In this document: one piece after another, positions 7,127 to 10,874 of the stretch
How positions within the stretch are numbered: position 1 is the first letter of the stretch
How the letters are laid out: every line of letters starts with the position of its first letter
Assembly: GCA_903830945.1 (NCBI GenBank)
Contig: CAIKVT010000063.1
Coordinates: 1-54,399, forward strand
Reading direction: 5' to 3'
Source: an uncultured Elusimicrobia bacterium
Lineage (GTDB): Bacteria; Elusimicrobiota; Elusimicrobia; UBA1565; UBA9628
Length of the DNA stretch: 54,399 nucleotides
Made by a program: the position numbers and the translations under genes
Notes under the pieces: generated by a model
What the model saw: the letters and a program-made list of their open reading frames with translations, nothing else
What the model was told of the DNA's origin: nothing
Database searches by the model: none

Positions 7127-8026
7127 CTATTTATAGAGGCGGATGTCGTCGACGTGGACTATGTAGCCGGCATAAATAGGCGACCACGTGCCACTTTGAT
7201 CCCAAGAGTATTTTATGATCGGGACACTGTCGCTCTTAACGCCATAAGAAAGGAGGCCGACATAAGGCTGGTTCCCGACAGTCAAAGCGAGCTGCCCGTT
7301 TATGTTGAAATTCGCGCAGTAACATTTGTTGTATGGTCCCATCTCGGTCGCATCGACGCGGCAGTCGTTGTCCTGGTCCGGCGCCACGTAGAGAGAAAAA
7401 GAAGTCAGATCGGAGACGTATGTGCCGTTAATGCGCAAACGAAGCCTGAAAGAAGTCGTCTTGGCTGGGCCCATGAACGCCGTGGGAGAATTCCCGCTTG
7501 CCGGGCTGCTGCACAGCACTTCGCAGAGCCTGCCGCTGGCTGCCGCGGTATATAGCCCAGCTCGGGTGACTTTAACAGTGCTCCGAATGAAGTCATTGTA
7601 ATAATACAGCTTCCCCGTCGTGACGTTGAGGGGCCTGATCCACGCGTAGCTATTGTTCGGCTGAGGGAAATCCATCGACCCTTGCGCCAAAATATTCTCC
7701 GGTGTATCATCCAACATGATCCGGGACCACTGGGTGCTCGTGCCATTGGCCTGGCTCGCGTAATATCCGCCCGTCTCTTGACAGTACGCAAAAGTGCCGA
7801 GATCCGGCATGGGAGCGACGTCCATCTCCGCACGCGTACGGTACGGGATGAACTTGTACGTCCCCGCCCGAAGCCTCTTGTAGACGCCGGATGGAGATGG
7901 ATAGTAGGTCGTCAACGTCATGCTGTCCGCAGCCGCTTCATATCCGCCGCAGCACATAAATAACAGCACCGCGCCCCATGCGATGGCCCTGCGAGAAGCG
8001 TGGACACGAACCCCATGATTATCCAT
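7127..8026 (-). CDS. exported TTYYPSP-motif protein
   Basis: Predicted protein of 299 residues. A basic N-terminus (MDNHGVRVHASRR) is followed by a hydrophobic segment and, directly after the likely cleavage site, the sequence DSMTLTTYYPSPSGVYKRLR. That TLTTYYPSP.G.Y motif recurs after the signal peptide in secreted proteins of Elusimicrobiota and Omnitrophota genomes as I know them; its role is not established. The remainder is Tyr/Gly/Thr-rich and beta-like, with several Cys and an Asp-rich DQDNDCRVDATE segment that may bind calcium. The ATG at 8026 has a strong GGAGG eight bases upstream; the ATG at 8086 has none. Confidence 0.75.
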   Translation of the reverse strand: MDNHGVRVHASRRAIAWGAVLLFMCCGGYEAAADSMTLTTYYPSPSGVYKRLRAGTYKFIPYRTRAEMDVAPMPDLGTFAYCQETGGYYASQANGTSTQWSRIMLDDTPENILAQGSMDFPQPNNSYAWIRPLNVTTGKLYYYNDFIRSTVKVTRAGLYTAAASGRLCEVLCSSPASGNSPTAFMGPAKTTSFRLRLRINGTYVSDLTSFSLYVAPDQDNDCRVDATEMGPYNKCYCANFNINGQLALTVGNQPYVGLLSYGVKSDSVPIIKYSWDQSGTWSPIYAGYIVHVDDIRLYK

Positions 8027-8149
8027 GTTTGGCGCCTCCGAGTTTATAAAAAATATCCAGGCATCACAATGCGCGCGTGCGTTCATAGTTTAGGAGCCGG
8101 AGATGAAGGCGGGATTATTTTTTGTTAAGAGATGTTATCCTAACAAAGC

Positions 8150-8194
8150 GAGGCGCCAAGGCAAGCGTCGTTCTATCGACTGCCTTGGCGCCTC
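8150..8194 (-). terminator. perfect 14-bp inverted repeat, probable terminator of the 8200-8367 RNA
   Basis: GAGGCGCCAAGGCA at 8150-8163 is exactly complementary to 8181-8194, with a 17-base loop in which GTCG (8167-8170) can pair with CGAC (8177-8180). On the minus strand the stem is followed by GCTTTGTTA, a weak U-rich tail; on the plus strand no T-run follows. It therefore fits a minus-strand intrinsic terminator or a stable 3' end hairpin better than a plus-strand one. A second, smaller hairpin (TTTGTTA 8121-8127 with TAACAAA 8141-8147) lies just beyond it. Confidence 0.5.
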
Positions 8195-8367
8195 AGAGTC
8201 TCGGACGACCCGTCCTGAGTCCGGCATTCACCGCGACTGCAACGGCTGCTGACGTATGCTCCGATGCGGCACCGACTGCGACCTCTACGCACGGTCCGTT
8301 GAAACCACTTCTCGCTACCGACCGCTTCGACGACTCCGGACTCAGGACATTCACACGAACGTCCGAC
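8195..8367 (-). ncRNA. candidate structured non-coding RNA (minus strand)
   Basis: No convincing gene lies between 8027 and 8569. On the minus strand a strong promoter (8374-8401) would start a transcript near 8367. Seven bases at 8360-8366 pair perfectly with 8201-8207, and thirteen bases at 8336-8348 pair perfectly with 8212-8224. The two helices are nested and separated by an asymmetric internal loop (11 and 4 bases), enclosing an apical domain of about 110 bases. The 14-bp hairpin at 8150-8194 follows directly. The sequence CATTCAC occurs beside both 13-bp arms (8225-8231 and 8348-8354, plus-strand sense). The rod shape and length resemble 6S RNA in outline only; I found no RNase P, tmRNA or SRP core motifs. 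It could instead be a structured leader of the exported protein gene at 8026. Confidence 0.5.
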
Positions 8368-8373
8368 GCAATG

Positions 8374-8401
8374 AGTATAGCTGGATTCCGCGATTCGTCA
8401 A
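8374..8401 (-). promoter_or_regulatory. sigma-70-type promoter for the candidate RNA
   Basis: Minus-strand TTGACG (8401-8396), a 16-base spacer, and TATACT (8379-8374). Transcription would start near 8367, at the base of the predicted outer helix of the candidate RNA. This is one of the best promoter matches in the window and points into DNA with no plausible protein gene for more than 300 bases. Confidence 0.55.
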
Positions 8402-8428
8402 GACCCAGGGCGCACTCCGGCGGCGTTT

Positions 8429-8569: not shown

Positions 8570-8992
8570 ATGGGGAAGAAGCTTTATGTCGGAGGCCTAC
8601 CGTCCGAAGTCACGGACATCCAGCTCAACGCCATGTTCGCCGCTTGCGGCGTTGTTACCAGCGCCGAGATCAGGATGGAGAAAAAGACCGGACAATCACG
8701 CGGCTTCGGCTTCGTGGAAATGTCCACCTTCGCAGAAGCTCAAGAGGCCATCAAGAAGTTCCACGACACCACCCTCGGCGACAATAAGCTTGTCGTCAAC
8801 GAGGCCCGCCCCATCCCGGAGAAGCCCCAGAAAGGATTCCGCGGCTTTGACGGCGGTGGCGGAGGCTACGGCAGCCGCGGTGGAGGCTACGGCGGTCCCG
8901 CCGGGAATGTCGGCAGGTCCGGCGGCGGGTTCAATCAGAAAGGACACGACCGCAGAGGCGGCGGCGGCGGCAGCGGTAAAGGCGGCAGTTGA
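8570..8992 (+). CDS. RRM-family RNA-binding protein with Gly-rich tail
   Basis: Predicted protein of 140 residues. One RNA recognition motif spans residues 3-80, with RNP2 LYVGGL at 5-10 and RNP1 RGFGFVEM at 44-51, both with the aromatic residues that stack on RNA bases. The remaining 60 residues are an Arg/Gly/Tyr-rich tail (GGGGGYGSRGGG repeats), as in cyanobacterial Rbp proteins and eukaryotic glycine-rich RNA-binding proteins. Such proteins bind single-stranded RNA and act as chaperones, often in the cold. The ATG at 8570 follows a run of G (GCAGGGGGGG) that can serve as Shine-Dalgarno sequence. It lies next to the candidate structured RNA on the opposite strand, and any link between the two is speculative. 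Confidence 0.92.
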   Translation: MGKKLYVGGLPSEVTDIQLNAMFAACGVVTSAEIRMEKKTGQSRGFGFVEMSTFAEAQEAIKKFHDTTLGDNKLVVNEARPIPEKPQKGFRGFDGGGGGYGSRGGGYGGPAGNVGRSGGGFNQKGHDRRGGGGGSGKGGS

Positions 8993-9074: not shown

Positions 9075-9146
9075 GCCGACGTAGCTCAGCGGTAGAGCAA
9101 CCGCCTTGTAAGCGGTAGGTCGCCGGTTCGATCCCGGCCGTCGGCT
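9075..9146 (+). tRNA. tRNA-Thr (anticodon TGT)
   Basis: A 72-base cloverleaf. The acceptor stem GCCGACG pairs with CGTCGGC and the discriminator base is T. The D arm has AGCTCAGCGGTAGAGC, the anticodon stem ACCGC pairs with GCGGT around the loop CTTGTAA (anticodon TGT, reads ACA), and the T arm carries the GGTTCGATCC core. CCA is not encoded. Its 3' end borders the accessory island, and a degenerate copy of the whole gene lies 3.3 kb downstream at 12415-12504. Confidence 0.95.
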
Positions 9147-9732: not shown

Positions 9733-9761
9733 TTGACAAATATGTCTATACATATTAAACT
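9733..9761 (+). promoter_or_regulatory. promoter with operator palindrome for the XRE/Fic pair
   Basis: TTGACA (9733-9738), a 17-base spacer, and TAAACT (9756-9761). The spacer is almost entirely an inverted repeat: AATATGT (9739-9745), CTAT, ACATATT (9750-9756). A repressor dimer bound there would block RNA polymerase directly. The first gene encodes an HTH protein, so autoregulation is the simplest reading. Confidence 0.6.
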
Positions 9762-9789
9762 TATGGCGCACTTCGGGGGACAGCGCGCT

Positions 9790-10257
9790 ATGAAGAGAAA
9801 TAGACTGCCTGTATCGAGCGAGCATTTGCTGGACCAGATAGTTTCCTATGGGCGCAGGGCCCCGGAGGGACTGGAAGCCCTGCCGGTGCATGCTCTTATT
9901 AGGATGGTGCGAAATGCGGTTCGGATGACCCAAGCCCAACTGGCCGCGCGCGCCAACCTGCCGCAATCACACCTGGCCGTGATCGAATCCGGGAAAGTGG
10001 GCCTGAAGTTGGCGACCTTGCGAAAGATCTTTAGAGCTCTGCACGGCGACCTGGTGATCGTCGCCCGCTTCCGAAAGACGCCTGCCGCCATGGTCGCGGA
10101 ACGCATACGCGAGGTCGCGCGCAAGAAGATCGCGCGCGTCTCCGGCAGCATGGCGCTGGAAAAGCAGCTGCCGGATGACGTTATGACCAAGCGGCTGATA
10201 AAGGCGGAAGAGGAGCGTATGCTGCGCGAGCCTTCGACAGAGATTTGGGAGGAGTGA
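9790..10257 (+). CDS. XRE-family HTH regulator, mobile mystery protein A-like
   Basis: Predicted protein of 155 residues. A helix-turn-helix lies at about residues 37-95 (MTQAQLAARANLPQSHLAVIESG then LKLATLRKIFRAL), followed by VIVARF and a basic C-terminal region with VSGSMALEKQ. The domain order and the MALE..Q motif match 'mobile mystery protein A', whose gene regularly precedes a Fic protein called 'mobile mystery protein B', as here. It probably represses the pair and may act as the antitoxin. The ATG at 9790 is chosen because of a GGGGGAC element 9-15 bases upstream and because it lies downstream of the likely transcription start; earlier starts at 9733 and 9763 overlap the promoter. 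The stop TGA overlaps the next ATG by one base. Confidence 0.8.
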   Translation: MKRNRLPVSSEHLLDQIVSYGRRAPEGLEALPVHALIRMVRNAVRMTQAQLAARANLPQSHLAVIESGKVGLKLATLRKIFRALHGDLVIVARFRKTPAAMVAERIREVARKKIARVSGSMALEKQLPDDVMTKRLIKAEEERMLREPSTEIWEE

Positions 10258-10874
10258 TGGTCCACTTTGACACGCCGGAAGGCGCGACGCCAATCGAGGA
10301 CGCTTCGGGCTTGCTTATCGACGGAGTCCTCACTTATGCAGCCCTAAACGCGGTGGAAACCGAGAATATCGTGAGGGCTGTCAACGCCCATCTGCGACGC
10401 CGGAAACGGCGCGGAGCGGTTTGGCTCATCGAGGAGTATATCCGGCATGTGCATCGAGACATGTTCGACAGCGTATGGGAATGGGCCGGCCGCTACAGGG
10501 ATGCGGCGTTGAACATCGGCGTCCCGGCGTCCCGCATCCGGGAGGAAGTCGCCAAGCTTTGCCAGGACGTGGCCTTTTGGGACGCCCAACAGGATAATCC
10601 TTTGCCTGTCTTGGAGCGCGCTGTGCGGCTGCACCATCGCCTTTCCTGGATACACCCATTTCCAAACGGCAACGGCCGCCATGCGCGTCTGATGTCCGAC
10701 ATTTATCTGTACGTCAACGGCTGCCAGCAGCCGGAGTGGCCTAGTTCCGCGATGAGCGGTGCCGGAGGCGTGCGCGCGGGCTATCTCGATGCTCTGCGGA
10801 AAGCGGATGGCGGAGACTTCGGGCCGTTGATTGCCTATACACGCCGGTTTCTTCCAAAGGAAAAACATGGCTAG
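10257..10874 (+). CDS. Fic-domain protein, mobile mystery protein B
   Basis: Predicted protein of 205 residues, close to the usual size of 'mobile mystery protein B'. It begins HFDTPEGATPIEDASGLL, as family members do, and has the EEYIRHVHRDMFDSVWEWAGRYRD region and a complete Fic motif HPFPNGNGRHAR at residues 133-144 with catalytic His133. Fic enzymes usually transfer AMP from ATP to a hydroxyl of a target protein. No (S/T)xxxE(G/N) inhibitory helix is evident in this protein, so control could come from the upstream HTH protein. The ATG at 10257 overlaps the TGA of the previous gene and is preceded by GGGAGGAG; the TTG at 10245 is a less likely start. Target unknown. Confidence 0.85.
   Translation: MVHFDTPEGATPIEDASGLLIDGVLTYAALNAVETENIVRAVNAHLRRRKRRGAVWLIEEYIRHVHRDMFDSVWEWAGRYRDAALNIGVPASRIREEVAKLCQDVAFWDAQQDNPLPVLERAVRLHHRLSWIHPFPNGNGRHARLMSDIYLYVNGCQQPEWPSSAMSGAGGVRAGYLDALRKADGGDFGPLIAYTRRFLPKEKHG

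Follow-up and report, generated by a model that had tools for sequence, protein, structure and literature searches.

The 54,399-nt stretch of uncultured Elusimicrobia DNA analysed here (the window) contains one member of a family of small structured RNA genes that had not been catalogued before; they have their own promoter and a shared 3' hairpin, and that this is an RNA gene family at all is very likely. Computation showed that a strong promoter, an optional 5' domain with a long closing helix and a hairpin with a bulged core are inherited together, that the helices covary, and that no conserved protein is encoded. An Rfam search with the window copy returned no match at the gathering score and nothing credible at E-values up to 5, and the family matches none of those catalogued in Rfam 15, to which it is a candidate addition. 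The original prediction of a structured RNA with its own promoter, a 3' hairpin and no protein gene stood, whereas its proposals that the RNA is 6S-like, a leader of the adjacent exported-protein gene or a partner of the RRM protein encoded next door found no support. The elements of the window copy are the following.

8396 to 8406, minus strand: −35 region GGGTCTTGACG, with TTGACG at 8401-8396
8374 to 8379, minus strand: −10 element TATACT (8379-8374), separated from TTGACG by a 16-base spacer
8366-8360 with 8207-8201, minus strand: outer helix, perfect 7 bp (TCGGACG/CGTCCGA), variable among copies
8348-8336 with 8224-8212, minus strand: closing helix of the long form, perfect 13 bp (GTCCTGAGTCCGG/CCGGACTCAGGAC)
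8225 to 8335, minus strand: interior of the 5' domain, G+C-rich and repeat-like, with frequent indels between copies
8194-8181 with 8163-8150, minus strand: 3' hairpin, 14 bp (GAGGCGCCAAGGCA/TGCCTTGGCGCCTC), the defining module of the family
8150 to 8194, minus strand: parts of this hairpin, namely stem, one-base bulge (8163), single pair A8181-U8164, GC bulge (8165-8166), four-pair stem GUCG/CGAC and six-base loop (8171-8176)
8142 to 8149, minus strand: imperfect U-tract GCTTTGTT 3' of the hairpin, weaker than in most other copies

The promoter, the two nested helices and the 14-bp hairpin were all found where they had been predicted, and from the position of the −10 element the transcription start is expected at about 8367-8369. 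The minus strand between 8140 and 8380 folds at −109.4 kcal/mol (z = −4.0) and none of 200 dinucleotide shuffles folded as well; the single-copy fold scores of relatives were mostly strong as well, with z ranging from −1.6 to −7.5. Because the plus strand of the same region also folds well (z = −5.4), the strand is not assignable by folding alone, and it was the promoter together with the asymmetric bulge of the hairpin core that identified the minus strand; the hairpin covariance model scored 81 bits on the minus strand of the window copy versus 31 on the plus strand. It is more accurate to draw the innermost of the 14 hairpin pairs as A8181-U8164 flanked by bulges (U8163 and GC 8166-8165), a version of the core that we preferred because it covaries. 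The hairpin at 8150-8194 is probably also the transcription terminator. The interior of the 5' domain (8225-8335) has no secure consensus structure, and the short form of the RNA lacks it entirely.

Four copies of the unit, that of the window included, are present in its own genome, where a nucleotide search recovered a second long copy on contig C81 (79% identity), a partial match (C69:89887) and a hairpin-only copy (C69:48387). The same type of search found copies in all six congeneric genomes searched, two to six in each and up to 88% identical. Compared side by side, the copies revealed a common plan, in which the promoter is followed by a 5' domain of very variable length (about 200 nt, short or missing, depending on the copy), the hairpin, whose core is conserved, and a U-tract. 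The hairpin core of long copies is found about 160-290 nt downstream of the −10 element; consensus folds of the long forms from the genera g1 and g9 place a long closing helix over several hairpins, with a weakly determined interior structure, and the g9 long form contains a conserved internal hairpin. Elsewhere the 5' domain is a small hairpin (L042, with two near-identical copies) or another short structure (L102, L103 and L047), and in the long copy at L037 (~200-380) it is enlarged by a run of CGTTCGTCGC-like repeats, which suggests growth of the interior by slippage. Short copies consist of promoter, hairpin and U-tract only, which makes the hairpin sufficient as a unit; it begins about 6-12 bases past the −10 element and takes up nearly all of the predicted transcript of about 55-60 nt.

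Compensatory changes among relatives, which the original prediction had named as its test, place the pairing beyond chance and were found in homologous units from many genomes, with changes on both sides in 12 of the 18 hairpin pairs (26 distinct hairpins from the genus of the window and other genera of its family) and in 9 of the 16 pairs of the closing helix. For the hairpin, 98.5% of the cells in the 18 pairs are standard pairs, 58 double-change cells were observed versus 16 in shuffles, none of 500 shuffles reached the covariation score, and at most 49% of the cells paired when the structure was slid by one to three columns. The pair beside the GC bulge is A-U in 13 sequences and G-C in 13, a swap that fixes the bulge geometry as stem, one-base bulge, one pair, GC bulge, four-pair stem and loop. 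Between genera, the four-pair stem switches from GUCG/CGAC to GUCC/GGAC; the GC bulge is conserved, and the loop (AUAGAA, AUUGAA, AUUCAA and similar) and the lower stem vary. In g1, g9 and g11 the long form retains its closing helix with differing sequence, and as the arms of this helix were placed in register by hand, the percentage of paired cells leans towards the helix and more weight rests on the double changes. Between these arms the interior changes fast and, in g1, is poorly conserved and rich in indels; relative to the window copy, 52 of 63 indels have lengths not divisible by three, which argues against a conserved protein. Overlapping open reading frames exist, and a protein-coding reading was rejected on the basis of these indels and of stops in most frames of most copies, as the prediction that no protein gene lies here had anticipated.

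Many copies across genera sit after mutL and/or opposite queE (L030, L033, L040, L041, L046, L047, L069, L076, L077, L078, L091, L103 and others). Since this position is retained across genera and families, while L135 and L139 have queE directly after mutL with no RNA between them and other copies lie in assorted, often convergent gaps, the RNA is an independent transcription unit. Its own promoter, a covarying structure, no common downstream gene and no reading frame characterise it as an independent structured RNA gene. Within g1 the copies occupy varied sites. On one side of the window copy, an exported protein of the TTYYP type is encoded on the minus strand (7127-8086), with a signal-like segment followed by the motif MTLTTYYPSPSGVYKRLR and no Pfam match; on the other, an RRM-domain protein with a glycine-rich tail (8570-8992, plus strand) represents one of three RRM loci in the genome. 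The exported neighbour was not found beside any other copy fetched, and no RRM gene was seen in the ORF tables beside other copies.

The family promoter is strong and of the sigma-70 type (GGGTCTTGAC-N17-TATACT), and in most copies it is close to GGGTCTTGACA-N16-TATACT. Where enough upstream sequence is available, nearly all copies have a promoter of this type, in most cases with a 16-base spacer, and the pattern occurs 5-12 times per genome versus 0-1 times for a reversed control. As it also stands upstream of lexA, a pilB-like gene and c-di-GMP aptamer RNAs, we rejected the idea of a special regulon; the GGGTCTTGACA element looks like a general strong promoter that is not specific to the hairpin RNA. 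At L107, L122 and L133, the same promoter precedes a lexA-like gene (identified by eye), and its −35 and −10 elements flank a palindrome such as CACTACAAATGTAGTG, probably the operator of that gene itself.

With a covariance model of the hairpin (R2), 31 of the 56 genomes of the order were positive at E ≤ 0.001, bearing in mind that E-values of home-made models are rough and that the search may overlook copies close to contig ends where assemblies are fragmented. Among 295 genomes sampled across the phylum Elusimicrobiota, within which the R2 search was run, 24 were positive and 23 of these belong to the same order; the weakest genome matches, G025 within the order and G056 outside it, were accepted on model score. 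Copy number ranges from two to six per genome in g1 and is mostly one in g9. About 45% of the genomes of the order lack the RNA, which is therefore not essential there. Of 26 genomes without a good R2 match, 24 gave a mutL match, and the readable regions downstream of mutL held no promoter-hairpin unit; in at least some genomes the absence is real. Exact-pattern matches outside Elusimicrobia (Dermacoccus, Anoxybacillus and others) were, by our estimate, about as many as expected by chance, and a viral origin was discarded after viral contigs gave no exact pattern match.

Regarding function, we tentatively propose, at not quite even chances, that the family encodes a trans-acting small RNA whose hairpin docks a putative protein and whose 5' domain is optional or exchangeable. 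Because short copies are nothing but the hairpin and a few flanking bases, the hairpin is the functional core, and given the variability of its loop and lower stem, a recognition site is possible only in the bulged core. The invariant part being a bulged stem and not a loop or a single-stranded seed, we infer recognition by a protein over antisense pairing. Acting in trans, the RNA would use its bulged hairpin both to terminate transcription and to dock a protein other than Hfq and CsrA; expressed at a high level from its strong promoters, it would titrate, tether or modulate the docked protein, with the 5' domain adding or tuning an activity and being open to loss, shortening or replacement. 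The strong promoters in several copies suggest a high abundance. A G+C-rich hairpin followed by a U-tract could also be only a terminator.

The protein-titrating RNAs CsrB/CsrC/RsmX-Y-Z occur as structured, fast-evolving copies with strong promoters and a common protein-binding hairpin. The hairpin RNA likewise comes in several structured, fast-evolving copies with strong promoters and a common hairpin and, by analogy, may work as a titrating or tethering RNA; however, its 3' hairpin lacks repeated GGA loops and 55 of the 56 genomes of the order have no CsrA (PF02599), the sole carrier being G007, which is without the RNA. A CsrA sponge was dropped on both counts. Hfq-dependent small RNAs end in a terminator hairpin with a U-tract, and the hairpin RNA shares with them an independent promoter, this 3' end and a variable 5' part; in contrast to them, it has a conserved bulged core, needless in ordinary terminators, and belongs to an order in which Hfq (PF17209) was detected in none of 56 genomes (control genomes: 5 of 14 positive), for which reason an Hfq-type small RNA was dropped as well. 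These counts exclude the two usual partners. RRM proteins were found in 40 of the 56 genomes and co-occur with the RNA (29 of 31 genomes with the RNA versus 11 of 25 without, p = 6e-5), but the association is weak once counted by genus (p = 0.18), RNA-bearing G008 has no detectable RRM protein, and the copies examined elsewhere do not adjoin an RRM gene. The suggestion that the RRM protein next door is the partner of the RNA was accordingly set aside as a finding, and it is a candidate only.

A full-text literature search found no paper treating the small-RNA biology of Elusimicrobiota, which is apparently unstudied. A multicopy, covarying hairpin RNA in an order without Hfq and nearly without CsrA offers a handle on the protein that organises small RNAs there, with the hairpin-only copies (~58 nt) as a minimal bait.

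An antisense small RNA, whose loop, interior or stem strands pair with mRNAs in trans, is an unlikely alternative to protein docking. The 3' arm UUGGCGCCUC of the window copy is complementary to GAGGCGCCAA, which lies within the ribosome-binding region (about 8026-8042) immediately upstream of the exported-protein gene, with a perfect 10-base complement (CGGAGGCGCCAAACATG) in the sequence, and the fast-changing interior could carry lineage-specific targets. However, this match was noticed post hoc and includes a palindrome (GGCGCC), a stable G+C-rich stem keeps the arm locked, and stem sequences and neighbours differ in other copies. In addition, short copies have almost no unpaired bases, which leaves next to no room for antisense pairing, and the order lacks Hfq.

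About as unlikely is a repeated promoter-terminator element without RNA function, be it selfish, MITE-like or a mere terminator. The multicopy, scattered and patchy occurrence, the hairpin with its U-tract and the near-identical pair at L042 fit this description; yet the ends of the repeat fall at the promoter and the terminator, covariation across genera extends to the bulge geometry and to a non-terminal helix, orthologous positions are retained, and viral contigs gave no matches.

That the long 5' domain is an aptamer for a small molecule, altering the state of the 3' hairpin in a stand-alone ligand sensor with no attached gene, is likewise improbable. The stable closing helix of the long form and the conserved internal hairpin of g9 would suit such a sensor, and another RNA family of these genomes, which shares the promoter type, has a c-di-GMP-I-GGC aptamer in L105. 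On the other side, the g1 interior shows little conservation and many indels, in contrast to ligand pockets, the 5' domain is missing from short copies, and Rfam gave no known riboswitch match.

A functional counterpart of 6S RNA (SsrS, RF00013) that binds RNA polymerase and is too diverged for Rfam appears quite improbable. The slot is open, as RF00013 matched none of the 44 family genomes (control genomes: 5 of 14 positive), and the resemblance extends to a long form of about 200-250 nt, a closing helix joining the ends, a strong promoter, independence as a gene, and near-universal single-copy presence in g9. However, the 6S-like outline that had been noted found no support: no 6S score was obtained even at E up to 5, the closing helix encloses a fast-changing, multi-branched interior with no central bubble, and the hairpin RNA has a conserved separate 3' hairpin, several copies per genome including hairpin-only versions, and is absent from many genomes of the order.

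A cis-acting leader (riboswitch or attenuator) of the exported-protein gene, suggested by a same-strand start about 65-125 bases past the window hairpin, depending on the start codon, is highly implausible and for the family contradicted, as homologous units recur with different, convergent or no downstream neighbours, hold no conserved same-strand position upstream of one kind of gene, and are conserved in their association with a preceding mutL and an oppositely oriented queE.

Searching the genus for the promoter also revealed a second RNA family (L105, L110, L121, L123 and L127, of which L110 is G000:C55:21817-21849, minus strand), located after purA and characterised by a conserved 3' hairpin GCCCGGCCUUAACUAGCUAUCUUCGGGAUAGAGGGGUAAGAUAGUUGGUAAGGCCGGGC and a U-tract; in several genomes it adjoins a gene for a HEAT-repeat or cyclase-like protein, neighbours that were identified by eye. 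The two families occur in the same genomes and have in common the type of promoter, a U-tract after a conserved 3' hairpin, and an optional 5' domain, but the hairpin of the second differs in sequence and shape. Between promoter and hairpin, L105 has a c-di-GMP-I-GGC aptamer recognised by Rfam (RF03167) and L123 a sequence that resembles one by eye, whereas L110, L121 and L127 are without it. A broader reading, in which both the absence of Hfq and the near-absence of CsrA are accompanied by a modular class of small RNAs whose bulged 3' hairpin docks a putative RNA-binding protein and whose 5' part is an exchangeable sensor or effector, is rather doubtful; if true, the second family, with an aptamer present or absent before its own hairpin, would be a parallel case of a sensor-fused trans-acting RNA. 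Two further loci, L112 (G006:C134) and L130 (G003:C70), have c-di-GMP-I aptamers (RF01051, RF03167) directly 3' of a GGGTCTTGACA-type promoter.

Elsewhere in the window, a tRNA gene at 9075-9146 on the plus strand is the sole Rfam match, and a helix-turn-helix gene with an overlapping Fic/DOC gene (9733-10874, plus strand) looks like a pair of the toxin-antitoxin type.
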